DNA of 64,000 nucleotides from Styela clava (taxonomy: Eukaryota; Chordata; Ascidiacea; Stolidobranchia; Styelidae), in contig NC_135254.1 in assembly GCF_964204865.1 (NCBI RefSeq), positions 11,909,001 to 11,973,000 on the forward strand. Reading direction: 5' to 3'. Of the stretch, positions 12,001 to 61,383 are shown piece after piece. The stretch's first letter is position 1; every line of letters starts with the position of its first letter. A program made the translations under genes and the position numbers. The notes under the pieces are model-generated. The model saw nothing but the letters and a program-made list of their open reading frames with translations, was not told the origin of the DNA and made no database searches.

Positions 12001-12593
12001 TATACATTTTTACAAATCAAATCGTTTATCCGAAAATATTTGAGACATACTTTGTGTGGTGTTTATTGAAACTGATTGTCTCTTAAACATTGTGATTCAT
12101 CATCAAAGATTTTCTACTTTATGGCCAATGCAAATTTGGTAGATTTTCAAACTTTGGTAGAATATATATACAGTATTATAATTTTCGTAATAAATCATTT
12201 CAGGATGCGGGACATGAGCCAAATTGACCCAATGGTTTATCAGCCGTTTGGGGCAGGACCACGTAATTGTATTGGAATGAGATTTGCGTTGATGGAAGTT
12301 AAGATGTCTCTAGCAAAACTTTTGCATACATTCACATTCAAGCCTGCTGAGGACACACCGGTAAGCTTAATGAAATGCAAAAGATTGTTGCGTTGGCATC
12401 GTGGAATTAAGCCTGGCTTTGCTATTTCTGCGATATATATATATATATATATGAAATAATACCTGACGTCCAGTATATCGGATACCTTATCTGTTTTCAG
12501 AAACCTCCTCTGAAGATGATATTTGAATTTTCTGTGCGTCCCAAAGTTGATTTTGACTTGGTTGCAGTACCTCGTCACACTGTTGCGACTTGA
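6087..12593 (+). CDS. Cytochrome P450, CYP3-clan-like, 14 exons, 514 aa
   Basis: Microsomal haem-thiolate monooxygenase. Exons: 6087-6160, 6664-6769, 7333-7385, 7827-7923, 8314-8393, 8670-8804, 8920-9074, 9506-9636, 9784-9859, 10231-10391, 11524-11612, 11808-11945, 12204-12360, 12501-12593. They sum to 1545 nt in one frame and every intron is GT-AG. An N-terminal hydrophobic anchor (WILIASVILLI) is followed by the C-helix WKRIR (132-136), I-helix AGYENT (319-324), ExxR as NETLR (Glu376, Arg379), PER (430-432) and the haem loop FGAGPRNCIG with Cys454. Length, PSYGLAHDPEYW and the haem loop resemble the CYP3/CYP5 group. Oddity: the I-helix residue after Glu is Asn, where most P450s have Thr. 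Start chosen because ATG-ATG opens directly into the anchor. Substrate cannot be told. No clear polyadenylation signal is seen just downstream. Confidence 0.93.
10795..11011. repeat. Hairpin-forming MITE inside P450 intron 10
   Basis: An imperfect inverted repeat. The left arm contains GAAGTATGTGAAC, CGGAACGTAGTAT and AGGTTAGGGTTAGG; the right arm has the reverse complements (CTAACCCTAACCTGGTACA, ATACTACGTTTCGG, GTTCACATACTTC). The terminal phrase GGTATTACCGAAGTATG (on the minus strand) resembles the terminus of the hairpin at 33419-33523, so both belong to one family. No coding capacity. Confidence 0.7.
12433..12452. repeat. (TA)n microsatellite
   Basis: About ten TA dinucleotides in the last intron of the P450 gene, between exons 13 and 14. 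Confidence 0.85.
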
Positions 12594-15543: not shown

Positions 15544-18500
15544 TCAATCTTCAAAATTCAACTTGCATTGCAAATCCTCCATTTGTGTGGACGAAAGTAA
15601 ACTGGACACTATTTGCTTAGCAGAAGGGCGCTTGTCAGGATTTTCATCAGTGCAAACATAGAATAATGCAATAGGATCTTGGTAGCTTTCGCCGAAATCT
15701 GTTGGTGGTAGATGCGGCCTGGTACCTTTAATGTAATATGCAAATAGGATTAGCAGATAACAAATAATCCGAACAAAATTGCAACAGTCTTGATATTAAG
15801 TATACCGGTACTCAAAATATTGAGGAAGGGCAATATTTAATAACGGGTCTATTACTGGTAATTTAAATGAGCAGAGGTAGAAATCAAATGTTTTGACTAC
15901 GATTTAAGGTTAAATAATATAAAACTTGATTTTATCATCCAACAACATATCTAACATTAGTAGTAGCTAGGACAGGAGAAGAAAGTGGAAAAATATCTAC
16001 ATCCAAAGACCAGATCCTACTTCCTATCCAATTTATATTGGTTCTGCACTTTTCAGAAATTACCACGTTTTTTATGTATATTGCAAAAACACAAACATGA
16101 AATGTAAAAAAAAAACTTCATAGTCATGGACATGGTATTGATAGTAATATGTCACATTTTGATCACCATAAAAACATTAACATGGCTACTATTCTCAAAG
16201 TCAAACCTACCAAGAAATGAAGGATAAATCTTTTCAGCTTCTTCAAATGCTTTTTCATATTCAGCTTCTGTTGGAAAATCATCCTCAATTGGAAAAATAT
16301 CGAAATGCGGAATGTTGAGTGATAACATTTCATAAATAACAAGTCCATATGAATAAATATCACTTCTGTCAGATACATATTTGCCTGAAACATAGAAGAG
16401 AATTAATTAGCTGTTAGATCATGATCATAGATTGATATTCAAGATTCATAGCCTGGATTATTATGTAAATAAAGAATCTAATGGATATGCTACCGTTAAA
16501 ACTAGTAATAGATACATGAGTGAGCAATTGCCAATGTAGCAATCTAGAATTTCATTAATGAAAATAATTAAATAAGTCTACAAGTCAATGCCAGAATCTT
16601 TCACTCATGAGAAAATACACACATCTGAATTGAGGAGATTTTCATATTTATCCCTGAGTAAAGAGGATAAAACGAATTGATCACATGGCTGTTGCCAGGA
16701 TTCAAACCTGTGAGCCTGAACAGGGTAATTAGGTGTGCGGAGCCTGAACGGGGTAATTAGGTGTGCGATGGTAGTCGTGTTGCTAAAGCTTAACATGATG
16801 TACAAACCGCCAGGATGATATCATTAATATAATATAATCTGTGGGCGTTTGAACAAGTAATAATTTACCCAAGATATATTTTATTGTTAACTACAATATA
16901 TCCCTACACATAGATAAACTCACCTCTAATGGCTTCCTTAGCTGACCATGATTCAGTCCCAACATAAAGTGAGGACAGAGCTTGAAGATTTTCATCAAGT
17001 TTTATTGCAACACCAAAATCACATAACTTTATTATATCGTATTCACCCTGAAAATATTTTTACAAAATAACATATGGAAGAGTAATATGATGGCGTCGTA
17101 TGAAGTTGGGTGACATAGATGGCCTGAGATGAACAGATTGTAATAAATTGGATAGGCAATTATGATCAAGGCTGAAACTTTGAATAGAAAACAATCCCCT
17201 GAATCGGCTCGACTTAAAATCAATTGAGTTAAGGATACCTTTACAAGTACATTAGCACTCTTGATATCAGCATGTAGAAGTTGTTTTTCAGTGTGTAAAT
17301 ATGATAAAGCAGAGGCAATATCCGATGAAACCTTCAATATGAGACGTGGTGCAAGAGGTCCTAAAACACAAAAAAAGATGTTCTGCAGGTTGCTTACACA
17401 AAAGCATGTATTCCATTTCTATAACATGCATCGGATTAATTTTTGTGGATAGACCATCTCACTCATGGGTAATCTTACCAGACCTTCTATGAAGTAAATA
17501 CAAAGCCTCATTCACGGTACAATGAATTGTTAATCTCACTAACCAATAACCATAACAAAAATTCAGTGATTGCATCCAGAATAGCCAACTCGTTAACTAT
17601 TTTCAAGCCACATTTACGCTGTTAACCAAATAAGACAAAAACAAACGAATTGTGGTCTTTCATACAAGGCAGTCCATTAGGTGTAAATTTGAATTACTAA
17701 TGCTAGTTTATGAAGAAGTGAAATATTTTTATCATGGCGACTAGTGAAAATGTGATCACAATTCTCCAGTATTGACACCTCAGTCTACACTAAAATATCG
17801 ATATAGACAATAAAAGAATTGTGTAATATAGAATCCTGTTTTGCATTAGGATTTTGACCCCTAATCTACATGCTACATTGAACTCCACAAACTGCTTAGA
17901 AAATGTACCCTAACAGCAATATTATACCAAAGAGCAAACCTAAATGTTCCTCCATTCTCTCCTCCAAGATAGAGAATAAACATTTTTCTGCATCTTCAAG
18001 AGCCAAACACAACATTCCATCTTTTGCTTTGGATAATGCCCGGAATCCAACAATATTTTTGTGGTCAATCGATTTCAATATGTTAGCTTCTTCTTTTAAC
18101 CTTGATTAGATAAGTATTTTCATAGCTAATCCAAATGCAAAAGAAACAAGTGAACTGCATGCATAAGAGAGATAATCATGTTTTGAAATTTATCAAAGAA
18201 AGTCATTAAGAAAAAATCTGAACATGTGAGATTACATGCTATTATTCCTATGCTACTCACCGATTGGCAAAAAGATTTGCTTTATTTTTCTGTTTTGATT
18301 TGTTAACTTTTTTTACCGCCCATGGTGACCGATGCATGCCTTGCCGTGGTGATCGTTCCAGAAGATAAACACTGACGCCTTCAAAACGGGATATTATAAT
18401 ATAAGAACACCTCACAACTTAAGCACTAGTTAACATTTCATTCCCATACTGTTATCAAAAGCAGTGGAAGCTAAAAACTAAACATGGCATTGACAAAAGA

Positions 18501-25885: not shown

Positions 25886-26869
25886 ATTTAAAAGTGTTTA
25901 TAAGCGGTACTCGGTTATGTTTAACTATTGCAACACATTTTGATTCCTGTCTACTAACATTTATAAAGGTTTAAGATGATACTAGAGAACGAAAATTTTT
26001 AACCGGTCCAATATTGATTTCTGAATCGTCAGACCAACTTGTATTATTTCATTAAAGTCTCCACTAATAAGTTTGCGACTTGATGGTGACGAAAAAACTT
26101 TTTGTCTAAAAACGATGAAAAAAAAAAAATATATGTTATAATTGTTAGAGACATGCTTAAAGATTTGAACAATTGGCTCTATATATTTGAACAACTATTT
26201 ACAAAACCTATATACATATTTTCACATTAAATATCATCTGTTGTGTTTGAGCGAGTAAAAATATATATCCTATCACGAGATTTCGACGTAGTCGTTTTGG
26301 AACTAGCGAATTAAACAAACAAACTCATTACATCAACCACCAAACTGAGATATTGTGCGTATTCGTGCCTATAGTCAATGATTAACATGCATGCACACAA
26401 CAAACAAATATGTCCGATGTGAGACTTATCTATGTTTCATGCTTGCCGATAAAGCTTTTTATGATCTTGTCTTGTGACTTGAATGCTCTTTATCATTGTA
26501 TTCGGGGAAATGGGTGATCGAGAGATTCATTTCAGTTTCACACGTTCGGTACGGCATTGAAAATAGTCAGTAACGCATCCATATTGAGAATTGGTAGATA
26601 CATCTTCTTCGCAAGTTTTACTGAATTTTAATCAGTATAGAATATCTATATTCTACATCAACGTTCATTTCTGATGTCAATTTCAGAAAAACCTACGTCG
26701 AGTTTGAAAATGGAGAGTTAAAGATTTGCGGTGAGAGACAAAATACACTATAGAAAGGAGTGAATCCACAACCCAACTTTTTGGATTTAAAAGCTACTAA
26801 GCTAATTTGACAATCAGATATTTGGTATAAATTTTATTTTTCCATAGCGTTTTTAATCATAGATGTAAG
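25886..26869. other. Upstream region of the PLAC8 gene
   Basis: AT-rich sequence without a supported gene. A splice-acceptor-like TTTTAATCATAG lies just before the PLAC8 start codon, so an upstream untranslated exon or trans-splicing is possible. Confidence 0.4.
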
Positions 26870-28180
26870 ATGGCAAATGAAAAAGCAGCTCTCGTTGAAA
26901 TGTACAATGGAAGCCCAGGTCATTACGGTTTTCCACCAACTGACGGACAAGTCCAGTCATCTTTTGGAGAAGAACCATCGACTTCACACACTTCAGCTAC
27001 TAACATGCTTGAAGATGTAGAACCACCATCTTACCAAGAAACAGCATTTGAAACGATTTCTAACAGGCCAACGTCACCGCCTCCTCGACCACCACCGCCT
27101 CGACTTAATCGTCAAACGCCTCTCCCGATGGTCGTTTCTAATCCACCTGCAGATATGAGCAATTTCAATCACGTTCACTCTGCCACAGTAATATTGAACG
27201 CGCCAGTAACTTCTCAACCAGCAATTGTTACAGTTAATGGTATTCCACCGGTGGCTGTGACACAGCAGCCATCAGTCGGCTTGCCACTTACAATACCACC
27301 CAATCAGGACATAACACGATATATAACGTACGGTCCTCGACCGTTCAGCAGCGGAATCTGCAATTGTTGTATGGACTGTCACACATGTGAGTACATTTCA
27401 TATCTGCTATTGTATAATTGTAATTTTTGTGAGTGATATATATCTTGGCTATAGTTGAAACCCATGTAATATATCTAACAAAAGAATAACAACTCTCTGT
27501 TTAACTCAACATTCTTATCCTATAGGTTGTTGCGGAACATTCTGTACTTGTTGTTACCTTGGAGCAATCGGTTCGAAGTTAGATGAAAGTTGTATGACTG
27601 GAATATGCTGTATGGCTGGATTGATTCCTCTTCGAACAAAATTTAGAATACAACATAATATAACTGTACGTATTGTTACTAAGCATATATATTTCATCCC
27701 TTCTTATTTTAACATAAACGAATTATCAGGATTGCATCAAATGGTCGGGTGCCTAGCGAAAAAGTAATGAAATTTGAGTCGACTGGTTGACACTTTCGAT
27801 TTTTAAGCTCATCGTTTGAAAAAGAATGATTTTTACTGTTACAAGACAAACTTGAAACTTTCATTTTACCATTTCTGAGTAGTGAATAATAGGTGACTGT
27901 AGTCAATCAGAGGCCGCCACAAATCACATATATTTATATATGTGAATTCAGAGACCTCAGTGAAGCAATGTTTCAATGTTTGCCATCAACGAACCATTGC
28001 TTAGTAAAATGGACATTTTTGTATTTTCTTTTCAATCCATAATTTTAATGAAATTATTTATTCCAGGGATCTATATGTGATGATATTTGTCTTTCCACGT
28101 TTTGTTCTTGCTGCGTTGTTTGTCAGATGGGCCGAGAGATGGAAGCATTGCACTACAAAAAGAAATGTTGCTGTTGTTAA
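26870..28180 (+). CDS. PLAC8-domain (cornifelin/plac8-like) protein, 3 exons, 256 aa
   Basis: Small cysteine-rich membrane-associated protein. Exons 26870-27386, 27526-27665 and 28067-28180 sum to 771 nt in frame with GT-AG introns. The first about 155 residues are disordered and proline-rich, with a WW-domain ligand motif PPSY (52-55) and a polyproline stretch SPPPRPPPP. The C-terminal about 100 residues hold the PLAC8 domain: GICNCCMDCHTCCCGTFCTC near the start of the domain, then ESCMTGICCMAG, LRTKFRIQHNITGSICDD and CLSTFCSCCVVCQMGREM, ending in a Cys cluster. The paired CC/CxxC pattern and the QMGRE tail are typical of the family. PLAC8 proteins act in varied roles (differentiation, cell size, metal tolerance), so the exact job cannot be named. 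The long N-terminal extension with PPxY is unlike the short vertebrate PLAC8. Confidence 0.9.
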
Positions 28181-35963: not shown

Positions 35964-38900
35964 ATGGAAAGCAGATTTATGATGAAATTCTTCTTATCAA
36001 CTCTTGTTGCATTGGCCCTTATGGGATCCGTTATTGGCCAACAAGTTGTTACTACCGCAGGTTAGAGTGTAGGATTAGGGCCACTCTGGGTCACTTTGGT
36101 ATTCTATTTTATTTCCCATTGATTGAATTAAGTATTCCATGTTTCGAATCATCAACACTTATTTTTATTAATAAAAATCGTGGTTTATTTGTATATTTTT
36201 TATTTAATTTGAGCCACTGTTTTACAGAATCCATGTACTAATTTATACGTGATATTGTAATTATAAAAGTTATTTTAATAAATCACAAACTTTCTCCGTT
36301 TAAGAAAACAAGGTAATCCCAGTTAAGTTTTTGTGGCCATTCTTTTCCGATTATGAATTTTTTTACTTACCTTCAGTTTTAGCGTGCAATGCCACTTCAT
36401 GCAAGAATGGCGGTGTCTGTCAACGCTTGGAGAACGGCTATGAATATTGTGACTGCGTGGGTAACTACACAGGTTATGATTGCGCTCTTCGAAAAGGTAA
36501 TTTTTCCTGTTTTCTTCAATCACCTATGGGAAGTTATCGAATAGTTAATTAATTGGGGCTTCGACAATTTACTAAGTGCCGTAGTTTGATTAAATACTTA
36601 TACTATAATCCATTATGTACATACACTTCGTGTCCAATAAACATTTTTTCATGGCTATTGTTTAAGAACTCGCACATGCAGTTCAGTCACTGTTTCGGAC
36701 TGCGTTTGTTCCATAACGTTCCAAGTATTCTTTCGTCAGTTGTATCAAAATGTGAACTATGTACAGTAGCATTCCGTGTTAAACTTTAGAAAAACTGTCA
36801 CTCAAATATGACATGAAAAAAAAACTATTTTTGCCCATGAAGTAAAAACACACAATGGCCTTTTTGTCGTCTTTGCAATGGCTTTTTTGTCGTCATGCAT
36901 ATTACCTGCTTGCCAACAAATTTGACAACATGTAAACATTTCTAGCGCCGATTGGTTCTTCTAATAATCTAATGTATATACTTGTTCTAACTTTGCAGGA
37001 GAATGCTCGGTTACTTCGTGCAGTGGCAGGGGACTGTGCCAACCATATGGCGAAGTTTATGTTTGTTTGTGCTTCCCTGGTTTTGGCGGATACGACTGCG
37101 AGATGACCGGAGGTAGCCTAATATTAGACAAATACTGCCTACTATTTATTTCTCTTTTTATATACGCCAAACGTTCTATGTCCTTCGCTTCGAAATGTCA
37201 TGTTACATTTTTTAAAATACAGATTCCCGTAATATTAGGAGCTAGAATTTTACTTTATTACCGGGCTCTATTACTCCCACAATAAATTCAACGTTTATCA
37301 GTTTTGGTATATAGTATTTTCTGGTTTTCTGGTTTGCCGTGGTTCAATTCCAAGTAAATTTCAAATTTCATCATATTAAGTTGTTTCACATTTTACAGAT
37401 ACCAGAACCTGTGCTGTGCCGCACGGCGATGATGGTTTGTATTTATTTATTTGAATTTATCACTTATTAGTGCTTAAACAAAGTAATTTAATTATATCAT
37501 GATTAAAAATAAAAATACTCCTGTCATCAAATGCAATTTCTTTCTATTTGGGTCAATAAATCAAAATGTTTTGCGGGATCATGTGATTTTTATTATTCAT
37601 TTCGCATTTCTTACACCGTGGGATCCGTCTGCGGATTGGTTACATGCTTAATGCTCAATAGGACCGTATTAATGAGAATAAGATTTCTTTTTTGTTGCTA
37701 CGAAAATTCTGAAAAATATCACTTTGTGTAGATTAGAATAAGACATATAATCCGGACGAAATGGAGATGTTGAATCATATATATAAAAAAGTGTGAAAAA
37801 TAGATGATGATGCAATAGAATGAAAAATAACAATTATAAAAGAAAAACTCATATCAATTGTATTAAAAACTAGTTCAGCAACGCCAAGCAAATCGACCAA
37901 TCATGACAACAATATTCATTTTGACAGTGTACTACTGTATTTCGGTCAAATATTTTGATGGGCTTTTTTACCTTCTAAAACAGAGAATGACATATAAGAT
38001 TTTAGTCAAACTACGCTGGGTTGTGATTGCATATAGGAATTCCGACAGAAGGGATCATTTTTTGTCAATGCAATTTTTCAATATTTCACTTCTAGACGCC
38101 GTACTATTCCCGGCATGTTCATTGAAGATGACGTTATCAAAAGCATCGGAATGCATTAACGAGAACTTGCCTTTCATCGACCGAAATGGAAATAAAGTTG
38201 AATGTCTGTGAGTACCAAAAAATTATCCATTCTTGAATTAAGTAAAATTAAATATCGTTATTCTGTGAAACGTTGTTGCAAATATAATAAAGAGGAAGTT
38301 GTATATTGCAAATTTAATTTGGAAAAATGGAAATTCAAACCTATGGAGTCGTGTAACGAATAACAATTGCAGCAGTAATTTATTATCGAATTAAGCTAAT
38401 TATGCATGTTTAGGAAATTTACATTTAGAGACGATAATTATTCATCTTTTGTCGTTTACAAATACGGTCGAGAAGTATAGTCTTTTAAACTGTTACTCTA
38501 AAAAGATAAGACCATTGCACAGATTTTGTATTGGAAAATTTGTACAATATTATTCAGTGATAGCAATTTTATCCTGACTAAAAATTTCCACTTCAGCAGT
38601 ACATACAACAGATTTAATCAGAAAACATATGCATCTATTTATTTGTTCAGATCCAAGATGGTGAAAACCGTCCGTTGTATTACAGACGTTGTCTCTCATT
38701 GTTCCACGTTGGCATGTGAAGGAACAATTTGGGAAATCGATCTCTTCGCTCATTTTTATCATGTGAGAATATTTTAATTTTACTGATTTTGCCAAACATT
38801 CTATTTTTTTGTCACGGATGAGTTAGAAATTATGTCGCAACTCAGTTATTGTAGAGACAAAAAAATTGCCTTTCCCGAAAATCACAAATCGATTTTACAA

Positions 38901-41900
38901 TTTTGTATGTAAAGATGAAAGTTGTTTTTAGAAATAATTTTTTTTGTTTTTATTTTATTCTTCTATAGGTATGGCAGGTTAATTTACCATAGAAATTTTT
39001 TTATCCTCAAAATGGACTTCCGTGTATTTGTGCGTTACTCTTTTGTTTACTCGAACAGTCTTTGGTTTAACTAATTATCAAGCTAAATACATAATAATAA
39101 TAATATATTTTCAAAATTTTGTAACAGAATGCAGTCGTTAACACAATTTACAATATGAGTTCACCATTTATGAAAAATCTTTTTGAACATGTCGTTTGTC
39201 CTGACCTCACCGCTGACGGGGATGTTCTTAATCCGAATGTGACCTTTGATATTGGAGATCCAGTTTGTCAAAAAAACCTTATGGATAATTTGTTCACAAT
39301 AATGCGTCAAACTTCAATGAAATTACATGTTGCTGTAGATTATGAACAGTGCAGGTGAAGTTACATTCATTTTAAAAAAAATCTCGAAGCTTCTGTTCAA
39401 ACATTCGGATATGTTATGTTCAATTAGTATATTATTAAATTATGTAATTTGACTATCTGACGATTTTATTGAACAAATTGGTAAAGCATGTGATCGAAGA
39501 TCAAGGCGTCCTTATTCCGACAGGCTTTATCTACTTTAAAATTCAACAAACCTTCTATTCTTAAATGTATGTTTTATTGATCTGTCAATATGGACGGCAT
39601 TTACAACTTTTTCTTCTCTCCGAGAGGCTACTCTGACGACGATTTAAAAAATGGAATATGAGTGCCCTTTGGTTCATGATGCTAAATTGTTTTACTCTGG
39701 GTGATTGTGCATATGTCTCATTCCGATTTTAAATTCTTGATTTCAATATGTTATTTTTTTTAAAATATTGAAATTCCATTTTTTTATATTTCTTTATGTT
39801 GTAGAGTCTTAGACTGGACAAGGTATGCTATCTTTAACGAAACTCAAAAAAGTTGCAATTGGTCTAATATTGTGGAAGTATTACCAAAAAACGACACAAT
39901 ACATGCTCCAAGATTTGCTGATCTTCTGAATAAAACGCAACATTTTCTCTTGGAATGGGTTGTTCCAGATTGTCGAGGTAAATTCTAAAGCAGTGTTTCC
40001 CAACCCGAGTCTGCGGTCTCAAATGAGTCCGAGGAGCGTTTGAATGAGTCCGCAACGAGCCAGAAATTTACTGCGGGTCGCAAACGATTTTGCGGAACTT
40101 AACTATCAGCCAAGTTACGATTTACGTTAGAATTTACATAAAACATAATAAGCAAGTTTATTCACATAACATTAATCGAGTCAATAATTACTGGTTACTA
40201 AGTAGGGCTGCTCATATATTCGAAAACTCATCTATTAGAATATAAATTTACTATTCGAAAATTTGGTAACAAGTGACGCGACGGGTCACTTGCGCGCTGC
40301 TTAATCAAACGATCGGATTTACCAATTCATTTACGGATTTCCGACGAAAACACGAGTCTGCACACGCTTCGATAGATACCTAATGGTGTTTCGCGAGTTC
40401 GAACAACGAGGAATAGATTTTCTTTCTGATGCTAAGTGTCAATGGTGGTAACCCAGTTTTTTTAAATTGAAAAGCGGAAATAATAAAAATAAAACGGAGA
40501 ACACCTTAAGTTTTGTTTTATGATGGTCCGCGATTAAAAACGCTTTTTTAGACACTACGAATTGCAAAATTTCGGGTGCTGCGGTAGTATACGTACCAGG
40601 GCATTTTTCCTCAGAATTCCTTGGATTTTTCTTCAAGATTTTTTGGATTTTCCCTCAGGATGCCTCCACATTGGTACGAACAGCTCAGATTTGTCGAATT
40701 CACAAAAATACGAATCAAAACAAAATATAATCAGGCACTTTCACGCATTTTTGTGTCCACGCATTGTCATGATATTTTCTGAGTAGTATTGCTTTTATTT
40801 CGTCAAGACGTCCGCAGATTAAAATGATCACAATTAAATTAATAATAAAGCAAGGCGATGAATATGTATATTTAATTCACTGATATACTTCAAATATATT
40901 TTTAATTTATATTTAAGTGCTAAATCAAGTTGCACTTTCTGGAAATTCATAGCAGATAGTAGGATTTTTCTAACGGCGATAACAAATTCGCAAGATCGCA
41001 AAAAATATGTATCCAAACTAAATATAATCTGGCAATATATTCTCACATCATCATAGTCCCAGAATGCCTTGCCATTTTAAAGCAGTAATGCTTTCATCGA
41101 AGCAACCGCGAGTTACCATGAACACAAGTAAATTAAAACAAAAGGACATTTTAAATTCTCGTCGTCGTCATTGGATTGAATATTGTGCGACAGAAAAGGC
41201 CACTTTATACACTAAAAAATTCGGCTCTTTTAACGAACGCGTAATTGCGGCGAATTTCCGATTTTGAAATTCGTTAAAGTTCTGTTATGTTTGGTTTTAT
41301 TGCTTTTCACACAGAGTACGCTTGCAATAAACGCACATTGAGTCCGCAAAGGTTTTCGCCGGTGAAAAAATAGTCCGCGACCAAAAAAGGTTGGGAAACG
41401 CTGTTCTAAAGTGTTAATTCGTGATATACAATTCATCTTGCCCACATTTACTCATATAGAAAAAACATAGTGAAACAAAATGGCGAAATTAGATTCTGAC
41501 AACGCAGTGCGCTTTATTATTATATAAGTAATGAGTATTTAAAGGGGATTTCATATTTTTCAAAACGTTCTTAATATATCGACGATAGCTAGTGATTATA
41601 CACTCGGCCAAGGTTTTTGCAACTATATGTAAATACTTTCGCACTGTTTTGAAAAAAAAACTTTGTATTTGTAAAAGAATTGTGTATCCGACCGGATATT
41701 TAAATTTTTACATCTAAAATTTTTTTTTACACACAGTTATTTCCCGATCTCTCATGTAAATAAATAGTTATTTACGAGATATATAAATTCTTTTAATATT
41801 TTTATTTGTAATTTGTATTCCTTTCAATTAACGAATGTAATTTGTTGAAGAGATTTTGAAATTGTTTTCAGATACTCAACAATGCCTTATTGAATGTCAC

Positions 41901-44900
41901 AATAACGGCACGTGCATGTCGATGGGGGGCGGTTTAGAATATTGTATTTGTAAAGATGGCTTTGGCGGACACGATTGCTCTCTTAAAAAAGGTATACAGC
42001 ATTCTATTTTTCTGTGGATTAGCCAATTGTTTATCTTCCCTTCGGATTCACTAAATTTTGAGTCAGTCTGTCTGATATTTGGTAATATTATTCACTCATT
42101 TATAAATTCCCAATCTTTACCGCAAAGAAACGCTGATGGATATTGTCGAACTTTATACTTTCGCAAGAGGAGATGCCACATTGGCCCTAAATTAATAAAA
42201 ATGATTACACTTTGTAAATGTCAGGTTATCAATCCAATTATTCGTTGAATGTTTTTGACAATTTTGCTTTCTGTTATTGACTACAAGTGAGAACTACGAG
42301 CATGGGCCATTTTTATTTATGAAACAAGATTTTCTGCCATTTTGCAATACTCGCGTACGTTTGAGAAAAATAATTTCAAATGTGAAGATCAAATAACCAT
42401 GACAAAAATCGAATTGCGAATCCGACTTTGGGCGCAACTGTGCTTACAAAACTAGTGATTGTTAATCTCCCACCGAGCACATTTGTAAGAGTTTACAAGC
42501 AAGAGTTTACACATCATTTCGTGTCGAACGTAGTCTCTCACACGTCGTTAGATAGCAGTGATCGTTTGTTGAGGGCCTTGCTCAAAGCGAAAGACGAAGA
42601 TAATTTTAGTATAAAAAATGCGACAAGATAATTCAGTACTTGAAGCAAATGGGAATATTTTCATTAATATATTTGTAGGAAACTGTTCATCAACTGATTG
42701 TAGTGGAAACGGATTATGCCATCAAGAAGGCGACTTATATACATGTTCGTGCTATCCTATGTATGATGGGTACGATTGCGAACGTTACGACGGTAAGTTG
42801 GTATAATTGGAATATCATGTGGATTTATGTGATTGAGGGGAACAATGATGCTACGTATTCCAATCAAGTATACATATATATATATACATTTCATAATTCG
42901 TTTTTTATCACTATTTCACATTGCACACATATTTTCAGTTCTATTTTCATTTAATTCGTTCAAATATATATATTCAACTTTCCGCAGAATCCAGACGCTG
43001 TGCTGAACCATCGGACAACGACGGTAGGTTTCATATTACATACCTATTTTTTATTTTCATTATAAGTTTTAATCACAAGTGTTTTGATAAATTTACTAAA
43101 GATAACAACCCGTTATTGAAGCCTTTGTGGGTTCGGGTATAGCGAGCATTTAAAAATGTTACGAAAATCAGCTTTTCACTATTTTGGTGACATTATTATA
43201 ATACCACAATTGAAACGAATCTAGACTAATGAATTAGCATTTTGATCCCTTGTCTACGATGACAAATTCAAATCTATAATAAATATTTTTTGTTCCATTC
43301 TGAAAGCTATACGTTCTATCTATGTTTCTATATTATATTAGTTCGGGACACGAAATACACCATTTTGAATTTTTATTTTATACCATTGTATGATTATAGA
43401 TGCAAAACTCTTCCCCGCTTGTTCTTTGAAGACATTCTTAGACCATGCATCAGGATGCATCAATGAACAGCTACCATACATCGATCAGCATGGCCTCCGT
43501 AATGTTTGCAAGTAAGTATACAATTATGACTCTACATTTTTATTTTTTATTCCCATCAAAATTTTTTGGGAAATTGTAATTTAAATTCGTAATTATAACT
43601 CAAATACTTTTTATATTCATTACAAAAATAATAAAAATAGTGTAAATTCAACACGGGGTTATATGTAGATTGCGAAAATGTAGTTCATTGAGGTGTATTC
43701 AATTGGTGTATTTTCATGTTGGTAAAAACTGCGATATTAAATTATATTATTTAGTCTAAATCGAATGAAATTGATTGTTTTTCAGGACTAAAATGATAAA
43801 AACTATTCATTGCATGACGAATGTACTTACACGGTGTTCAACATTGGCTTGCGCTGGTTCAATCTGGGATTTACAGATATTCCAGGATTTTTACAGGGTG
43901 AGAAGCGGTTGTCTCGATTTCCATCTCATCACTATGTATGACTGTATTTATAGCATGAAATTGGAGTAAATTTTCTAAAAATGAAAGCGATACAGTTGAC
44001 TAGATTTCATGGCTCTTAAATCAGGCTGTGATAACTAAATATACCAAAGTCGGGTAGGCACAGAAAACGTTTAAATTTTTGTGTGGAAACAATCTTATCT
44101 TAAAGGACTTAATTGCTCTACTAAATGGGAAAATTGGCTCAAACAGAAAGTATACTCAAAATGGAGTAGTTATATGAGCCCGTTTATTTGAAGTAAAATG
44201 CCTCGGCTAGATTATAATTTTATTCAAATGATTACGTTTTCCAAAAATATTGATATTTATTTATTTATACAGAATACAATTGTTCCGGAAGTGTTGAGTA
44301 TGAGTTCTCCATTCATGGTAGACCTATATGAACACGTCGTTTGTCCAAAACTCGGCCCCGACGGAAGTTTTCTTTCATCAAATATTACCTTCAATATTGG
44401 AGGCCCAGTGTGTCAAAAAACCCTCATTGATAATTTCTTGAAAATTCTTCGTCAAACCGGCATGAAATTGTTTGTTCCAAATATGGGTCATGCTGAAACA
44501 TGCAAGTACGTGACTAAGGATTAAAAAATTATTTTTTTCTATGTTGATTTGATTGTGCAGAAAATCGATACATGTTTGTAAAATACATAAATACAGCCTG
44601 TTTACGCATGGATGAGGTTGGAATTGATAAATTCTTTCAAAAAAAATGTATACCATATTTAATTAGATAGATTTCATAAATACCTATTTTGATAACTAAG
44701 GCTCTACTCATATTGTTATATAACAATGCTAGAGCTGTAGATCTTTTCAAAATAATTTTGAAGTTTGTGCAAAAATGTGGCGTACTGTGGGCTGACTGTC
44801 CGTCGGGTGACTTTAGAACATCGTGTGCTTGTTTGTCTGCCCTGCAGGTGTACACGTAATATAGCGGGTGAAAAATCGGGAACTTGAGTTTTGCAAGAAC

Positions 44901-47900
44901 TTCGTTTTAGGTATATAACCATGGTGACCGAGCGAAATATTATTGAAATATTAAGATGTCGCCCACAGAAAAAAATCATGTCTAGTTCGTCTTCACCACA
45001 TTTAATACTTCGATCTTTTGAGCACGGGCAAAAATTAACATGCAAAATAAAAAAAAATAGAAAAAGTGTCGCTACCTTTGTGTTTGGGAAAAATTTCGTT
45101 ACAATTTAAAAATTGACGTTTCGGATTCAACATTGATTAATAACAATATTATTGACTGTTTGTAGAGTTTTCGACTGGACGCGAGTAGCCATTTTTAACG
45201 AAACTCAAAAAAGTTGCAATTGGTCTAACATCGTTGAAGTTTTGTCCAAAAATGACACAGGACTTGCTCCAAGATTTGCCGATCTACTGAACAAAACGCA
45301 GCACTATTTCTTGAAATGGGTAATTCCAAAATGCCGAGGTAATTTTAGTTGATGCCATAATTGTGGGAATTTATTTTAAACATTGACATACATTTCAAAA
45401 TCATTGATAACCGCATTTATGATAATTCATCTGTTTTTTACATCAGACCCATGTTTGCAAAACAACCCATGCAAAAACCAAGCAATCTGTGATGGATCAA
45501 GCGGATGGGTGTTTTGTGTGTGCCAGGAGAACTGGGTTGGAGAACATTGCGATCAGTATGACAGTAAGTGTTTATTTATATACATCCATTGTCTGATGCT
45601 AGCTAGGATAATAAATTTTTACTAAACCAAAACCGGTCATAATTAAACGAACACTTCCATAAGAGAAAACTTTTGTAATTTAAAAATCGATAAATCATAA
45701 ATATTTTAGTACCAGTCTTCTTACAATGGAGTTTTAGATTAAAGCCAAAGTAATCTTTTAGTGGTGCATGTTGAAGAATTGTTCCTATTTGCTCCTTTCA
45801 ATAGTTCAGATTTTTTAAAAGTGTGTTTCACCTGATTGAAAGGAAAAACCTGTCAAGTACTGTTGTGATGTCTTTTTTTTGACTAAAAATTCAAACGTAC
45901 TTATCTTGGACATTTTGATTTTTAAAAATTAAATACTTTGATAAATAAAATAAATTAAAAAAATACCAAATAAAATTATTTCCCTTGTTTCAGTGACTGC
46001 CAAGTGCCCAGTTCCAAAAGAAGACGGTATGTTGATATTGTTGCGTTTTATTTCCAACTATCAAATAGAAATTATCGACTGAATCTTTATATCAAAAGTT
46101 CAAATTGTCACACACAGCTTTACGAATGTCAGTCATCGAATGCCTACTTGTCGGAATTTCATTTAACGATATTTGGACGCTGACTGAGCTTCCTAGGAAC
46201 TTTTTATTTCCAAAACGCGTCAAATAAATAATAGAATTTTCTGATTGTTTCTGATGTTTTCGATCCTAGCTGTATGTAGTTTTACGTTTAAATCACTTTT
46301 ATCTGTTACTCCAGACTATTACTTCCTCCCTAAATGCACAATTAAGACCACAGCTCAAAAATTAACTCGATGTTTTGATGGAATGGACACATATATCATG
46401 CAGCATCTCACAGGACAAGTTGACATGCGGGAATGCACGTAAATATATATTTTTAGTTTGTTACTCGATAAGGCGACTTAGGATTAGTAACTGTTAATTA
46501 TACAGCTGTTAGGTGTTTAAATCGTTTTTAGTATTTGCTATTGAGAGCAGAATTTGCAAAAGCTAATTTACCTGAAAAAAATTCTGATCGCTCCCCTTGT
46601 TAACTTTTTTGCCTACATAGCTTCAACATTCGTTTTAAATATTCTTTCTTTTTTACCACTTTTTACTATTTTGAGACACGGGCCAAATTTGAATGGAATA
46701 CACAATTGATTTTTTTACTAGTCAGTTCATGCTGTTTGACAGCGTTTTCAATTCTTTCTGCAACTTGGCTATGGGTTCATATTTATGCAAAATAAGCTTG
46801 ATAGAGACATAAAAAAATATTTTACACTCTCAAAGTGTCACAAACATTGATAATTTTTAAAATGGAGCAATAAGTCGAATATTTTTCTCAATTTTAGTTT
46901 CTTGCCGACCAAACAAATATTCCTAAAACTTTGTATCCAAGTTTTCTCCAAATATTTGATGTTTTTCTATTTATATTTAATACCTTATCGATGTCACTAG
47001 TTTACCATCAGATTGAACTAATACTAATCAAGCCACATTTTTCAGCGATGGTGTAACAAAAACCATGCATTGTATTGGAGAAACTCTTACCGATTGCTCT
47101 AGAATGGCATGTACAAGCATTTATAGTCTTCCTCATGTTCCCGAAATAATGACGGTAAGTTTAGTATTTATCTTTGTTTGTGCATGTTGTACGTGTAAAA
47201 TGTTTTCAATAGGACGGCAGTCAACAATGTACGAGAATTGTGAATTTATTTTTAATGTTTTTCTAATGAGCAAAACTACATGCCTTGTCAATTCACTTCA
47301 TGTGAAGCAAAGTTTTCTGATAGTATGTAAATTTTGCGACGAAATCTTCATTAGAATTGTGATTCAATCAAATTCAGTCAGAAAAAAAACTTTCAAATCT
47401 TTGCTTTAAAATGGTCACACTGGAATGCAAACCATAAGCAGATCTAAACCAATATCGAAAAAATAAACACCGAAAGCGATAAAACCAAGAGCATTATCGA
47501 TTTGCACCAATATTAGCGTAGAAATATTCAATTTGCTGTTGGAAATTTTCTCATCACCAACCAATTTAATGAAAAAAGGTAAATGTGTATAGATACACTG
47601 CTTGAAAAAAATACAATGTGGTTATGAGACGGTCCATCGACTACGGGGAGACATGCTTCATACATAAGTGATACATACGTGTGAATGCTTCACAGTTGTC
47701 TTGCTCGAGCAGGTAAAAGCCACAATACCAAACAATGTGGGAAATAAATATAAATGGTATTTAAGGACTGGAATTATTAGGGTTACGCAGAATAGAAACG
47801 ACCACCTGAGTTGCAACACCATGTAAACATCGGATCCATATTTCTTAAATATATATTGAAAGGTGTAATCACTGGTTAAGTTGGAAAATCTTTAAATCGT

Positions 47901-50900
47901 AGTAAACAAGCAAAAGAAACGCCGCCAGCAAAATCTTAGTTCCCGTCTGGTAATCAAGAATTAAAACTGGCAAGACACAGCTTTCTAGAATGATACTTGG
48001 TATTGTATTGCCTCCAGACCTTTTGTAAAACACTACTGGAAAACTTTTTTATTGAGGGTTGTCTAGTCTAATTCTAACTTCAAGGTGTGCGAAACTCTTC
48101 AATTCCTGCTACCTAGAATGAATATCTTGATAATTTTTTAAAATTATATTTTCATCGCGCTGCCTGAACTCTAGTTTTGCTGCAACATTTTATGACCATA
48201 TTTTTACATTATGAATCCTCATAATTATGGATGCAATTTGATATGTTTGAATAATGGAATGTTCGGTTATACGCATTATCAAACCATCATCTGATATGAT
48301 TGATCATATGTTTTGGCTGATCGATTTCAAATATCACGAATATCAACGTTATTTTATTCGTTTTTAAAGGGGTACCAAAATTTAAATGGAAGATTTTAAG
48401 CTTAAGATTTTACAATCATAGATTGCTTTCATATAATATAAACCCCAAACGTATCGGCAAGCACTCAATAATAATCGAATACTCTACGAATTGAAATTAT
48501 ATATAGGTATATCAGTTTTCATCGGAGCTAAAATGTTCTCAATTTTGAAATTTATTTTAGTTATTTTTGGGACCATTTAATTTTTGCAGGGTCTTATCGG
48601 AGCCATGTACAATCAGTCGATGGCTTACGTCATCTCTCACGCCATATGTGGCCCGCGACCAGCTGGTGGATGGTACCAGATGCTTAAACAATACAACTTG
48701 ACCTTGTCCATGCCACTCAACATTGGCGCTCCTGTGTGTGCCAACACGTTCGTCGATGATTTGCTAAATGCTTTGAAAGATCTGGACATGGATCTGGGTT
48801 CAGTTCATGACTTGGGCGGGGTGTGCAGGTACATTCATATTAATAATATACTTTTACTATTCGTTTGCTCACAAGAATATGTTCATAGGAAGAACAAACT
48901 TATTCGAATGTTAAGTTACAATAAATTACTACCAGAATAGATATAAAATAGCAAAGTTTTACGTTTTAAATGATTTATTAAAACATGATAATTGGAAATT
49001 AACATAAATGATATCCGGTTGTTTATAAACGAAATATCAATGAATAATGAATTATACACATAACGGGAGCCGGGTGCCGACAGGATCAACGATTACCGTC
49101 AAGATCGTATTAAAATGTGATCAATTTAATAAGAATTCAGAATATAAATATTTTAGCAAAATATATTAAATACAACTTTCAATGCGAGATGTTGCCGAGC
49201 ACACAAACTTATTTGTCAAAGTGGATTTTCTAGCTCTGTAAGCTATTTAATTGTTTTAAAGTCATGTTGAAATATATTATGCAAAACAATTTTTCTCGAC
49301 TTTTTCAGAGTTATGGTTTCAGCTAAATCAAAAATAGTTGCAGCTATCTCTACTTGCAACTTAGAAATGATAAAATATATTCCGAACTTACCGGGCAACA
49401 TAGCAGGCCATCTCAGTGGAGCGGCCAAAGCAGTTCGTTCTCTAATTATGAATTTAGAACTTCCATTCTGTTCAGGTGTGTTTTACTTTACTTATATAAT
49501 AAAAATCACAATAGGGCGTAATATGCATTAGATTGATAAATAATATTTTCTTCCAAATTTTCAATTGTATGTCTGATTTAATTAAAATTGAACTATTTAT
49601 ATTTAAAATTACTTTCGTAGCAAAGCACCAAAACTGTTCAACAATGAAATAAAATTAACATTAACATTAGAAACCTAATCGACATATTTTCAAAGCGGAA
49701 TCAACAACAAGCTCCTTTCGTAAATTACATGCCCTTATGCATTTTTTATTGCAAAATGATTGCATTATACTTTGATTAAATTACTCTGAAAATAAAATAC
49801 ACATTGTGTTTTTTTCTCTTCCACAGGCCACGGCGGTAATGATGAATGTCCAGAAATTACTGCATACAGTTCTGGATGCCAAATGCGAGAAGCTTACATG
49901 TGTCAATTAATCAGTTACCGCAAGAGTCTCATAGAATGGCAAATGAGATTTATGGACTGGTGGTGAGCTAGAATAAATGAAATTGTAATTCATAAACAAT
50001 AAATTATTCAAATAGGCCAATTTCAAGTGTTTATTTGTACTTGATTTTGTGTAACAATGCGTTGAATTCTAGCAACAATTTTAGTTATTCAATTAAACAT
50101 TTTGATCAATAACCAATAGGGTTGTCTGTGGCTGTTGTCGAGCAATAAATGATAGTATTTTGTTTTATCTATTGAAGAGGTTTTGTTGAGTTGTGTCTGT
50201 TGGTGCATGGAACAAAACAACGCCTCATATGCAGCTATTACTTTTTTCAAATTTTATTTCGACTATCTGGCTCGAACCCCAAACTCTCCCAAAACACATC
50301 AAATATATATTGGTTTTGAGTAACATTGCATCGAAACAAAGCTAAATAAGCTAATGCCCAACACCGACTTTTCGTCAAACTATTCATAGAAGGTATTTTA
50401 TGTCTTTATTTTCCATTCGAAATATAAAATTTTTGAAATTTAGGCAGAGTTGCTCCAATTTCGCCGAACGTGACTGGGATGACTGGGCTTATACAATGAA
50501 ATTAAAGCGTGGTGATGGATACATGGGTGACGATCAAGGGTATCGAAGTCAGAACAATAACTACCAAGATCCAGGTTACGGCCAAATGCCAAGCGGAAAA
50601 GGCAAGAAAGGATTTATGAGGATGCTGGCAGCCAATTTCCCGTGTGCCAAAAATCTCAACGTCAGATGCAGAAATGGAAATCCAAAAGAACTTACTACTC
50701 CAATGGGATGCAAGGTTTCATATTGCGCTACAGGAGGATACGAAAGTACGTATATTTATTATAAAAATATAGATGTAGATGATGGGTGTCACTGCAAATA
50801 AGACTGTCAGATCGTAATACTATCACAATTGGTGGGCGTTGAATCACAATTCCAGATCTGTAATATTTTACGACATCAGGATGAAAAATAGATATGTCAA

Positions 50901-51619
50901 AATATAAATACCGTATATAATTAGAATAGCTGAACTTTTAATATTTTAATTTTTGAGCGAAAAAAGGCTCAGTAGATTTTTGTAAAAGTTTTTATTTTAA
51001 ACCGACAGATTTCAGCTTTGTTATTCAGATATTTTATATTGTTTCAGGTACTGGCAACGTAGCTGCAGGTTGGTCAATGTTGCACATGCGTCATAGAAAA
51101 CTCATGGTTATTTTCAACGCTTTGTCTAAAGATTGTTCAGGGTAAGTATGTTGTGCACTCTTCTTTTGCATTCAAATTGGACTTCATAAACAACATCCTT
51201 GCGTCGTCCTGCAATTGTCTACCATAATGCTAGAATGTAAATGCAATGTAGCTACTGTATATTGTTTCAGGTCCATGTCATCATGTGAGTTTGACGGCGG
51301 TTCCGGTCCTACTGTATCATCTACCACTAGTATGCCCTACACGACACAATGGCCAACAGCCACTGTATGGTCCACGGGTTCTCAGTGGCCAACCGGTACA
51401 CAGGACCCATCTTCGCAATATCCAACCTATGCAATGACAACCGATCATATGGGTTCATCCGACCCAATGGTTTCTACATCTGCCAATCCGTCTATGACTT
51501 CATCAGGTCCATCTGCTTTTGCATCTGCCACTCCGCCTTCGGCTTCATCCGGTGCAACTGCTCCTGCCAATCCGCCTATGACCTCGTCCGATTCACCTCC
51601 ACTGACAGGGGGCCCATAA
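35964..51619 (+). CDS. Secreted modular protein: EGF domains plus three copies of an unrecognised 11-Cys domain, about 1184 aa, 25 exons
   Basis: Exons (approximate): 35964-36060, 36383-36496, 36999-37112, 37399-37434, 38096-38207, 38651-38762, 39128-39354, 39805-39977, 41872-41991, 42679-42792, 42988-43023, 43400-43511, 43786-43897, 44273-44505, 45166-45338, 45447-45563, 45994-46026, 46315-46438, 47046-47154, 48590-48828, 49309-49475, 49827-49962, 50444-50745, 51048-51141, 51271-51619; total 3555 nt in frame. A signal peptide (MKFFLSTLVALALMGSVIG) precedes module A (two EGF domains, linker, 11-Cys domain, residues 33-328), module B (same, 329-628) and module C (one EGF, 629-891). A Cys-rich region (892-1070) and a Ser/Thr/Pro-rich tail follow. 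Exons 2-8 and 9-15 match in order, phase and nearly in length. N-glycosylation sequons are frequent. No transmembrane segment is seen. An alternative acceptor at 36376 would add two residues. Function unknown; extracellular matrix, mucus or egg-coat roles are guesses. Confidence 0.85.
39991..41403. mobile_element. Non-autonomous hAT element, 1413 bp, in intron 8 of the secreted protein gene
   Basis: Inverted termini CAGTGTTTCCCAACC and GGTTGGGAAACGCTG are flanked by TTCTAAAG on both sides (39983-39990 and 41404-41411). Repeated GAGTCCGC phrases occur near both ends. It contains no recognisable transposase. The insertion begins 13 nt after the last base of exon 8 (39977), leaving GTAAATTCTAAAG as the donor region. 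Confidence 0.9.
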
Positions 51620-56330: not shown

Positions 56331-59300
56331 ATGTCAGAAACCACATGCTGTATACACTACCACGACTGCGACGATGGCCTTTTGACTGAGATATCGATCA
56401 AAAGTTGTAAAAGGATATGGTATAGTTCATTAGCCTGGAAAGATTTGGAATGTGAGGTAGATAAAGAAATAGCAATAAATATTTTGAAGTTGGATGAAGA
56501 TATTCTTAAAACTAAGCAATGCCACAAAAAATGTTACTCAAAGTTCACGAACATAACAAGAATTAACAGAGCTCGTTCTAAAAAGAAGCCCATAGACACC
56601 GAAAATAGATCTGAATTAGGAATCAAGCCAAAAAGAACTTCAAGCGAAATTTTTGCAGATATTGGTAACAAATTTGCAAGACGGAATAAGAATGTTCTTT
56701 CCAAAAAATGCATTATATGCAGAAAAGAAAAATTTATTAAAAGACATAAAGCACATTCAAGAGAAAAACTGTCATGTTGCGAATATTCGTCTGGTAAGAT
56801 TTTTTCAGATAATTCAGTATAGATGAGGGGGTCTGGCATGGATATATCATTTATTTTAACCAGGCCGTGGGTTGAACACTAATTCAATATTCTTGTTGCA
56901 AATTCATAAATAACGCTATAAGGTAATTTATATAATCCAGGCAGTTTATAATTGAGTGTCAGGATGAGTAACATGTATGAGTTTGTTGTATAGCTGATTT
57001 TTAGGCACACATAATAGAATTCGAATAACATATCAATTTAGTTATTGATGTTAAAGCATTTGTTTAGTATAGCAACGCACATGTATTACATGATTTTAAT
57101 TTAAAAGTTCGAGAGAGATTTCTCATTTTAGTTCCATACTGATGTAGGCAATATTTTATTTCAGGTGGCCTTTTCTACGAAGCTGCCCTGGCAAGAAACG
57201 ATGAGTCTGTATTGGTGCAAATCAGAAATAGAGACTTGGTAGCGATCGAAGTGCGATATCATCCGTCGTGCTATAAAGAATACATAAAAATACTAACAAT
57301 CAAACCAATATCTTCGTCAAATATCAACAACGAAAATGTATACACCAAACATTTTGAAAATTTTTGCACATCTGTTGTTAACTCTATAATAATAGAAAAT
57401 GGAAATCCAATTACACTCATTAAATTGAAGCAGTTGTTCGTAGAATTTGTCGCCAAGGATGGCCTGTACATAGATAGTGACCTACAAACGTCATATTTTA
57501 AGCAAAAGCTGAAAACATGTTTACCAGCATTACTTTTTTTACGACCATCAATGCGCAGAAAAAGCGAAATTGTGTATTCACCGGAAAGCAAAAAACTCAT
57601 CGCAGAATATTTGGAAAGTTTGGAAATAAATGGAAATGACTATCATTACGATGAAACATCTCAAGTAGATTTTATATCCGAAGTCAAACGAGACATGTAT
57701 AGATCTGCCATTTTCCTGAAGAATGTAATCAAAAATTACGAAGGATGTGAAAAGACCTGGCCACCAACATCATCGGATTTCGAACTTCGTAATTTACAGA
57801 AAAGCATCCCAGTAGAACTTTATAATTTTTAGCATGGATGGTAGGAGCAAGTGAAGATATTAGCAACGAAGGATTCCTAAATGTCTCTGAATTCTACAAC
57901 ATAAGGTTAGTTTCGCTTGCCCAAGATGTCATCTATCTGGCTTCAAGGGGTAGAAAACAAACACCGAAACACTTAGCGTTAGGAATGACAGTTAGGCATT
58001 GGACCGGTTCTTCTCGACTTATAGAATTGCTCCACGGCCTTGGCCACTCGGCATCCCATTCTGTTGTGCTGGAGCATGATACTGCATTGACCGAATTGCA
58101 ACTGCAAAAACACACGATTGTTCCCGATGGGTTTCTACCGCGCATTCCGTCAACAATTGTTTGGGATAATAATGATTTCAATGAAGAGACAAAATCTGGA
58201 GAAGGAACGACACATAATACAAATGGAATTTTAATACAGGTTAGAGAAACTGTTGTTGCCTCTCAATCACGAGAAAAACTTGCAAAATCTAAGCGACGTT
58301 CTGTTCCAACTCGATCGGAATTCATAACTCCGTACCGGGGTTCAAAGACTTCCGAACCTGCTAAGATTTCAAAAGAAATTATGTATTCCACTGCCTGTTC
58401 TACGATAACTTCCAAATATTTGAACATAGATCTTGCATACGTACTTCTTAAACTCCCAGAAGTTTCAAAAACAGTTGTTCCGGGCTGGACTGCTTTTAAT
58501 ACCATTCTTAATAAAAGTGCTGCCCGTGTGTCGAATATTGGATACTTGCCGGTTATCGACGCACCATCTACAGATATATCAACAATTAACACAGTACTCG
58601 AAAAAAGTGTTGCTATTGCTGATGAACTTGACTTACACTCTGTTGTGGTGGTATTTGATCAGGCCATATACGCTAAGGCCCAAAAAATACGTTGGAGCAA
58701 TCCACTTTTCTACAAAAGATTGGTTTTGCGACTTGGAGAGTTCCATACATGCATGTCATTCCTCTCTGTAATTGGAAAACGATACGAAAGCTCTGGTCTA
58801 TCGGATATATTAATAGAGTCCCGTGTCGTTGCTCCAGGTTCCATTAATAGTATAATGCATGGTCGCCATTACAATAGGAGTATTCGAGCCCACAAACTCG
58901 TGTTTGAGGCGTTGCATAGGATGCGGTGGAACGTATTCATCAAAAACCAATCATTGCAAAGCAAAGCCAAGGTTTTCGATTTGGCATCAAAGCTGAATAA
59001 TGCTTATACAGACCCTCAACTATTCAAACAAATATGTGAAAGCAAAGAAGTGAGGAGTCTAATGGTGGATTATCAGCTTTTTATAGAGCATCAGAGCAAG
59101 ATGAATAAAACATTTAGTTTATGGAGTTCTTATATCGATATGGTTGAACTTCTGCTGCAATTTATTCGCGCTACTAGAGACGGCTTATGGGATCTCCATC
59201 TTGCTACACTTCATAAAATGCTACCCTGGTTTTTTGCATATGATCATATCAATTATGCGAGATATGTCTCAGTCTATTTGTCTGAAATGGAAAATTTGTC

Positions 59301-61383
59301 ATCAAGTCATCCTGAAATATATCAGTATTTAAAGCAGGGAAATTTTTCCGTACAGCGTCATGCTCAATATGGTTTCAGCCAAATTGCCTGCGATCAATTA
59401 ATTGAGCAAACTTTGAACAGAGATTCTAAAACCCGAGGAGGAATTCGTGGGCTATCTTTAAACAAAAATGCTGTAAATAGATGGCTTCTATCACACCATC
59501 AACGCGCTCTTATTTCTATGGCATGCAGGGAAATGGCTGGAAAAGATTCTACTAGACGACAACGCAAAGACCTTGATTCTGCTAACTCAATCAGAGATGA
59601 ACAAAACGTGCAATCAATAGTCGATACGGTGACCTTCATGACCGACCCGTTTGATTTAGAATGCGACTCTCTGATGAACCTTTCTTCGGGGTCCGTTGCA
59701 TCAGATGCTATTAAAATGGATATGGAAGACGCATTTAGACTGGGAAAAAACAACGCAGATTTATTTTGCCAAAACCGAATTCTTGCTAATTCAACTGTAA
59801 GTATATTTACTCCTATAAAACAGCTAAAATTAAAAACATTTGCTTCGGGTAGCGCCAAAATTAACGAAAAAGTACCACACTTCTCTAAAAAATCAGAAGA
59901 TAATTTCTATAGGCTTCTACTTATTGGAAAATCGAAAAATATAGAACTGCAAGAAATGCTAGAATATCCATTAACTGCTATCCCCGCATCTATTGGATCA
60001 CCAAACGGAACGCCGGTGAGAACTAATAAAGCCAGGCTCTTGCACGAATTGGAAAATAGTGTGCCAGAAGTATTAGTCAAATCATATCCATTGAATGCAG
60101 CTCTTGTAATAGATGGTATGGCTTTATTGCAATCTTTGAATAATATTCCGGAAACTTTTGGAAGACTCTTAAATATGATTTTCGACAGAATAATTAATAT
60201 GGCAAAGTCTTACAATTGTAACAGGGTTGACTTTGTGTGTGACACTTATCCAGATATTAGCATAAAAAATTTTGAAAGGTGTCGAAGATCATCGAATGAA
60301 AGCGAAATCATCAAAATAGTAGGATTGGAACAAAAAACGCCTAAACAGTTTAAAAAGTTTTTGTTTTCCGGCAAGAATAAGGAGGCTCTTGTAGAATTTT
60401 TAATTTCGTTTGCTCCGAATTATCAACCTTCATGTTCTGTAGGGAAAATGAAAATTTTTATCGGCCACGGTGCTGAGTGTCACTGCATCAATTTCAGGCA
60501 ATTCCAGCTTTGCGTATCGGGCGAGCCTTCTTTGGTCAACGATCACGAAGAAGCAGATACCAAGCTTTTATTACACGCAAAGCATTGTTCATCGGAATTT
60601 AACGACGTAATTATTAACAGTCCTGATACCGATGTATTGATATTGTCATTGGCACATTCTTCCGATATTGGATGTAATTTGTATTTTTTAACGGGAAGTG
60701 GTTCGCAGTCCAGGATGTTATCAATCAGAAAAATGGTTAACTACTTCGGAAATGTCTTTTGCAAAGCTATTCTGGGTCTACATGTATTTAGCGGATGTGA
60801 CACCATTAGCGCTTTCCGTGGAAAGGGAAAAGTGAAGGGTATGCGACATTTATTGAAATCAAAAGAATTCATACAAGCTTTTTCAAAGTTAGGAGATCAG
60901 TGGTACATTCCAGAAAATATTTATATTCAACTTTCAAAGTTTGTTTGCACTCTTTATGGTTACTCTGATGAGATGTCTGTTAACAAAGTACGTTTTGAAA
61001 TATTTCAAAATAAATCGTTAGACGAACCCTGTATGCCCCCATCTGATGATGCTATCGTACTCCATTCAGCACGTGCAAACTACCAATGTGCCATACACAG
61101 AAGAGCACTGCAAAATTTTATATCTGCTCCAAATCCTGATGACCACGGATGGATAGTAAATGATAGCAATATAAATATTAAATGGATTTCAAAACAAATT
61201 GCCCCAAACTCAGTGCTAAACCATTCTAAATGCAGATGCGCCAAATTAAATTGCAAGAGCAGCAAATGCCCTTGTGTGAAGTCAGGGTTTTCATGCTCCA
61301 GTTTGTGCAGCTGCAACGATTGTAGCAACGCGGATGTCATACGTGAGGAAGACGATGATATTAATATCGAAATATGGTTTTAA
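56331..61383 (+). pseudogene. Transposase/nuclease of the large transposon, two exons, one apparent 1-nt frameshift
   Basis: Exon 1 is 56331-56793 and exon 2 begins at 57165, joined by a GT-AG intron. Exon 1 encodes a Cys/His-rich N-terminus (TCCIHYHDC, KTKQCHKKCY, KKCIICRKEKF) likely to bind zinc. Exon 2 runs to TAG at 57830-57832; the frame resumes at once one base later and stays open for 1181 codons to 61383. One missing T in the T run at 57826-57830 explains the break, so the intact protein would be about 1560 aa. In the long part: GTTHNTNGI, VVVFDQAIYAKA, then a PIN/FEN-like block ALVIDGMALLQSL (near 755), VDFVCDTYPD, HEEADTKLLLHA (near 902), SPDTDVLIL (near 926) and FSGCDTISAFRGKGK (near 985). 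A C-terminal CXC (tesmin/TSO1-like) cysteine cluster follows (near 1130-1165). Similar large proteins are widespread in invertebrate genomes. Confidence 0.8.

Follow-up and report, generated by a model that had tools for sequence, protein, structure and literature searches.

A predicted gene in a 64,000-nucleotide stretch of Styela clava genomic DNA (the window; contig NC_135254.1, positions 11,909,001 to 11,973,000 of the forward strand) encodes a protein in which EGF-like units are combined with three copies of a cysteine-rich domain, referred to here as D. We consider it rather probable that this protein is secreted and extracellular, glycosylated and rich in disulfides, with a role in a matrix, a coat or mucus. 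As an EGF mosaic it belongs to a known kind of protein; D appears to be the part without a match in the family libraries that were searched.

The gene model was derived from genomic sequence only. Exons proposed in an earlier note on this stretch were taken, each open frame was extended to splice sites, and the frames were then joined. The resulting model comprises 25 exons on the + strand (35964-51619) and 1184 residues without an internal stop. All 24 introns have GT-AG borders, and phases agree throughout. The protein consists of a leader, two EGF-EGF-D modules (A and B), one EGF-D module (C) and a tail with a Ser/Thr/Pro-rich end. This single frame-consistent model, with its hydrophobic leader and EGF units, agrees with the earlier proposal of one secreted multi-module protein, as does the exon model with two EGFs in modules A and B and one in C. 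The span originally given, 36383..49475, contained genuine parts of the model but was too short on both sides, since the leader exon lies 5' of 36383 and four further exons lie 3' of 49475. The features are given below. EGF units were assigned from the exon model, cysteine count and Pfam EGF matches, linker exons from the exon model and alignment, exons d1 to d4 from the exon model and intron positions, and tail exons from the exon model.

35964..36060, +, exon 1, signal-peptide-like leader (MESRFMMKFFLSTLVALALMGSVIG...), with the highest hydropathy of any 19-residue stretch in the protein
36383..36496, +, module A, EGF 1
36999..37112, +, module A, EGF 2
37399..37434, +, module A, linker exon with the 12th D cysteine
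38096..38207, +, module A, exon d1
38651..38762, +, module A, exon d2
39128..39354, +, module A, exon d3
39805..39977, +, module A, exon d4
41872..41991, +, module B, EGF 1
42679..42792, +, module B, EGF 2
42988..43023, +, module B, linker exon with the 12th D cysteine
43400..43511, +, module B, exon d1
43786..43897, +, module B, exon d2
44273..44505, +, module B, exon d3
45166..45338, +, module B, exon d4
45447..45563, +, module C, single EGF, the strongest of the Pfam EGF stretches
45994..46026, +, module C, linker exon with the 12th D cysteine
46315..46438, +, module C, exon d1
47046..47154, +, module C, exon d2
48590..48828, +, module C, exon d3
49309..49475, +, module C, exon d4
49827..49962, +, exon 22, tail start, with a TGA directly 3' if the donor is unused
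50444..50745, +, exon 23, tail, weak acceptor
51048..51141, +, exon 24, tail
51271..51619, +, exon 25, Ser/Thr/Pro-rich C-terminus and stop TAA

The leader reaches a 19-residue hydropathy average of 1.9. Beyond residue 60 no stretch of this length averages above 1.3, and there is therefore no obvious membrane anchor. The protein contains 17 N-glycosylation sequons, and Ser, Thr and Pro make up 56% of its last 104 residues. Over the whole protein, the Pfam EGF profile (PF00008) scored 36.3 bits, above its gathering score of 21.5, with four EGF stretches listed for the five EGF units of the model. The EGF segments hold 12, 12 (the two pairs) and 6 (the single unit) cysteines, i.e. six per unit. 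Indeed, the count is even in every segment of the protein from N- to C-terminus: 12/12/12/12/6/12/10 for EGF pair, A, EGF pair, B, EGF, C and tail.

D covers about 220 residues over five exons, namely the linker exon (36 nt in A and B, 33 nt in C) and d1 to d4. The lengths given in the earlier note for d1 to d4 in A/B/C (112/112/124, 112/112/109, 227/233/239 and 173/173/167 nt) were exact, and the exon phases are 1-2, 2-0, 0-2 and 2-1 in all three copies. Eleven cysteines had been counted per domain, and all of them align in the three copies. The linker exon adds a conserved twelfth, followed three residues later by a proline (TRTCAVP, RRCAEP and AKCPVP). Since this cysteine is present in every copy, the linker exon is best counted as part of D, giving 12 cysteines. 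The most economical reading of these counts is that each D probably forms six disulfides within itself. The recurring phrases first picked out by eye recur in part, none of them as written in all three copies. MSSPFM is found in A and B only, and NxGxPVC fits B and C, A having DIGDPVC. KxxMxL as written occurs in no copy in that region (RQTSMKL in A, RQTGMKL in B, KDLDMDL in C), where the recurring feature is a basic residue four positions before M. Invariant in all three copies are I-G-x-P-V-C and M-x-L.

The three copies are homologous. Comparing the 12-cysteine versions of D by BLASTP, we found 61% identity between A and B (E 3e-105), 26% between A and C (E 3e-16), and 29% over part of the length between B and C (E 2e-17). 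When the same version of C was shuffled with its cysteines held fixed, none of 1000 shuffles came up to the A-C score of 150 (the highest was 77), and none of 1000 came up to the B-C score of 168 (the highest was 71). The four introns inside the linker-to-d4 region have phases 1, 2, 0 and 2 in each copy and occupy alignment columns 12, 53, 91 and 176, the third being at column 92 in C. Because both phases and positions match between copies, duplication of an exon block is strongly supported, in line with the earlier suggestion that EGF-EGF-linker-domain was copied as a unit. Moreover, every EGF exon, every linker exon and every d1-d4 block has phase-1 introns at both ends, in all three modules. 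With such flanks, intron recombination could duplicate a block of EGF(s) plus D while keeping the reading frame. It is widely accepted that domains with a phase-1 intron on each side ('class 1-1') act as mobile units in the multidomain proteins of metazoans (PMC3927616).

For the whole of module A against module B, with their EGFs, the NG86 method gave a nonsynonymous divergence (dN) of 0.34 and a synonymous divergence (dS) of 1.58, the latter near saturation, for a ratio of about 0.2. Exon d3 alone gave dN 0.34 and dS 0.80, and exon d4 alone dN 0.11 and dS 1.09. The two modules have thus diverged under purifying selection. Blastn detected similarity between A and B in exons d3 and d4 only, so that their duplication is probably old. 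Copy C, being about equally far from A and B, would have split from the A-B lineage earlier. Module C had been called the oldest copy; what stands is that the A-B duplication is the younger one, A and B resembling each other more than either resembles C, and the data do not designate any copy as ancestral.

A profile of the three domains, run against the window, strongly matched all twelve d1-d4 exons. The next match was the A linker frame (E 0.008), and the remaining ones, at E 0.27 or worse, gave no further D copy in the window, two of them being the B and C linker frames. An internal duplication of D was also considered and rejected, as the similarity of its two halves stays within the range of shuffled sequence: in the three copies, the observed score was reached by 450, 313 and 359 of 500 shuffles. 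Nor does the tail, from exon 22 into the first part of exon 25, score as a fourth D copy: its score was -1.5, and of 500 shuffles made, 399 were scored, with 124 equal or better.

Several points count against the secreted mosaic as modelled here, and the first concerns its tail. Splice-site strength was expressed as a percentile among all GT or AG sites of the window. The 25-exon transcript originally proposed gives a workable model with consistent phases, in which the exon 22-23 join looks like the least certain part. The exon 23 acceptor (50444) lies at the 78th percentile of AG sites; the acceptors of exons 24 and 25 are at the 99.8th percentile or higher. Directly 3' of exon 22, at its donor, lie a TGA (49964-49966) and AATAAA motifs at 49972 and 49998. 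These signals and the weak acceptor would fit two genes or isoforms, one ending after exon 22 and the other, or an alternative stretch, made of exons 23-25; a short isoform ending at 49966 is possible. We regard such a division as unlikely, if still a serious alternative. Among GT sites, the donor of exon 22 ranks at the 95th percentile, and frame and phase run through exons 22-25 to the stop. Exons 22-25 together carry an even number of cysteines (10), whereas exon 22 alone carries three, and no signal peptide is evident by eye before exon 23.

The other points concern fold and function. Structure models were made for single exons, d3 of copy A and d4 of copy B, each with the three-copy alignment. 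Both showed helices and no strands, at low confidence (mean predicted local distance difference test score 49.5 for d3 and 60.7 for d4). A Chou-Fasman-type propensity estimate was noisy and contained much strand, and so does not back a helical reading. D is probably mainly helical, with weak support from the models. The functional role is proposed from the architecture, by analogy. With a layout of probable signal peptide, EGF(2)-D, EGF(2)-D, EGF-D and a cysteine-containing tail ending in the Ser/Thr/Pro-rich region, the protein would most likely serve outside cells as a multivalent scaffold or binding protein, rigid and glycosylated, in a matrix, coat or mucus. Repeated binding faces would be offered by the three D copies, with the EGF units as spacers.

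No family had been recognised for D in the earlier note, and our searches agree with this. Pfam matches were considered up to E 10, although the HMMER filters drop most of those above about E 0.1. The D copies gave only sub-threshold matches, to a different family for each copy. The best match of copy A was DUF3913 (E 0.0012-0.0032, below the cut-off), which recurred on fragments of A only, and that of copy B was TetR_C_38 (E 0.2-0.3, below the cut-off). Nothing was listed for D in NCBIfam, which consists of bacterial and archaeal models, or in a profile search of PDB sequences with the 11-cysteine alignment of D. In phmmer searches of the PDB, for which copy A, copy C and the tail served as queries, copy A gave three matches, none better than E 0.06 and two of them to mitochondrial ribosomal S7 and a poxvirus scaffold protein, and copy C a single match to squalene synthase (E 0.95), all taken as chance; the tail gave no match. 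Pattern matches to D in viral contigs (29) and genome contigs (62) yielded none confirmed by tblastn, which is weak evidence as these collections are unsuitable for an animal gene. No description of D was recognised among the open-licence literature matches listed, in titles and abstract openings from searches directed mostly at tunicates, ascidians and Ciona. D thus seems undescribed with respect to Pfam, NCBIfam, PDB sequences and the literature searched.

Copy C provides the strongest argument that D might be a remote member of a known disulfide-rich family, too diverged for single-sequence scans. Residues 7-71 of C matched positions 130-197 of the 207-position DUF1397 profile (PF07165) at 17.0 bits and E 0.004, and a fragment of C did so at 17.3 bits and E 0.0031. 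When C was shuffled nine times with its cysteines fixed, Pfam listed no match. DUF1397 is presumably linked to 27-kDa haemolymph glycoproteins; this family or another could be concerned. However, the score falls short of the 25.7 bits set as curated cut-off and was not reproduced in the Pfam scan by copy A, copy B or the three-copy consensus. Since A and B have their best matches in other families, also below cut-off, these sub-threshold scores look like chance. DUF1397 should accordingly be read as a lead and not as membership, and we find remote membership in a known family rather doubtful. We are equally doubtful about the most specific form of novelty, in which D would found a new family of 12-cysteine, mainly helical extracellular domains with an unseen fold, spread as a phase 1-1 cassette together with EGFs and used in a recognition or coat protein of one lineage.

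Finally, it is very improbable that the gene has decayed or that the model joins open frames that fell together by chance, as might be feared of a model built from letters alone in a window that also carries transposon genes: the 25 exons are free of internal stops, dN/dS between A and B is about 0.2 with nucleotide similarity left in d3 and d4 only, and intron phases are conserved at near-identical positions across copies.

Other features were noted elsewhere in the window. At 1-1653 (+), a hAT transposase frame is open to the window edge; in it, DUF4371 and the hAT C-terminal dimerisation domain both exceed the Pfam cut-off. Cytochrome P450 exons lie at 10104-12456 (+), with Pfam matches above the cut-off at 10104-10412 and 12076-12456; the best PDB match of the latter exon was CYP3A4. 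A frame at 7642-7968 resembles, by appearance, an earlier P450 exon. A protein-kinase-like exon is found at 17035-17418 (-), with a Pkinase score of 25.1 bits, below the cut-off of 31.7, and further kinase-like frames were seen by eye within 15547-18105. Cysteine-rich exons at 26831-28177 (+) give the impression of a PLAC8/cornifelin-type protein; two of the frames had no Pfam match to E 0.01. An 1184-residue open frame at 57826-61377 (+) matches DUF6589 and a tesmin-like CXC domain weakly, in both cases short of the cut-off, and may belong to a mobile element. When the window was scanned for RNA genes, no tRNA turned up, and no RNA family exceeded its gathering score.

Known systems resemble this protein in different respects. 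The likeness of DUF1397 is confined to a stretch of about 65 residues in copy C, where it is weak. Stanniocalcin is a secreted helical protein with 11 cysteines, and GDNF receptor-alpha (GFR-alpha) is a helical surface protein with three tandem cysteine-rich domains. For all three copies of D, neither profile appeared among the Pfam matches listed up to E 10, within the filter limit given above, and the PDB profile search listed no match at all. With the EGF mosaic extracellular proteins (PF00008) the protein has in common its mosaic design and five six-cysteine EGF-like units, each on one phase 1-1 exon; teneurin EGF models of Pfam also match it, below their cut-offs. It differs from them in that its bulk is the 220-residue non-EGF domain. 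Secreted EGF mosaics are common, whereas a 12-cysteine domain of this size, repeated three times, with no Pfam match above cut-off and no convincing match among PDB sequences, would be a new extracellular building block, and a D profile with fixed intron and cysteine positions could be used to trace its spread and its partners in animal proteomes.

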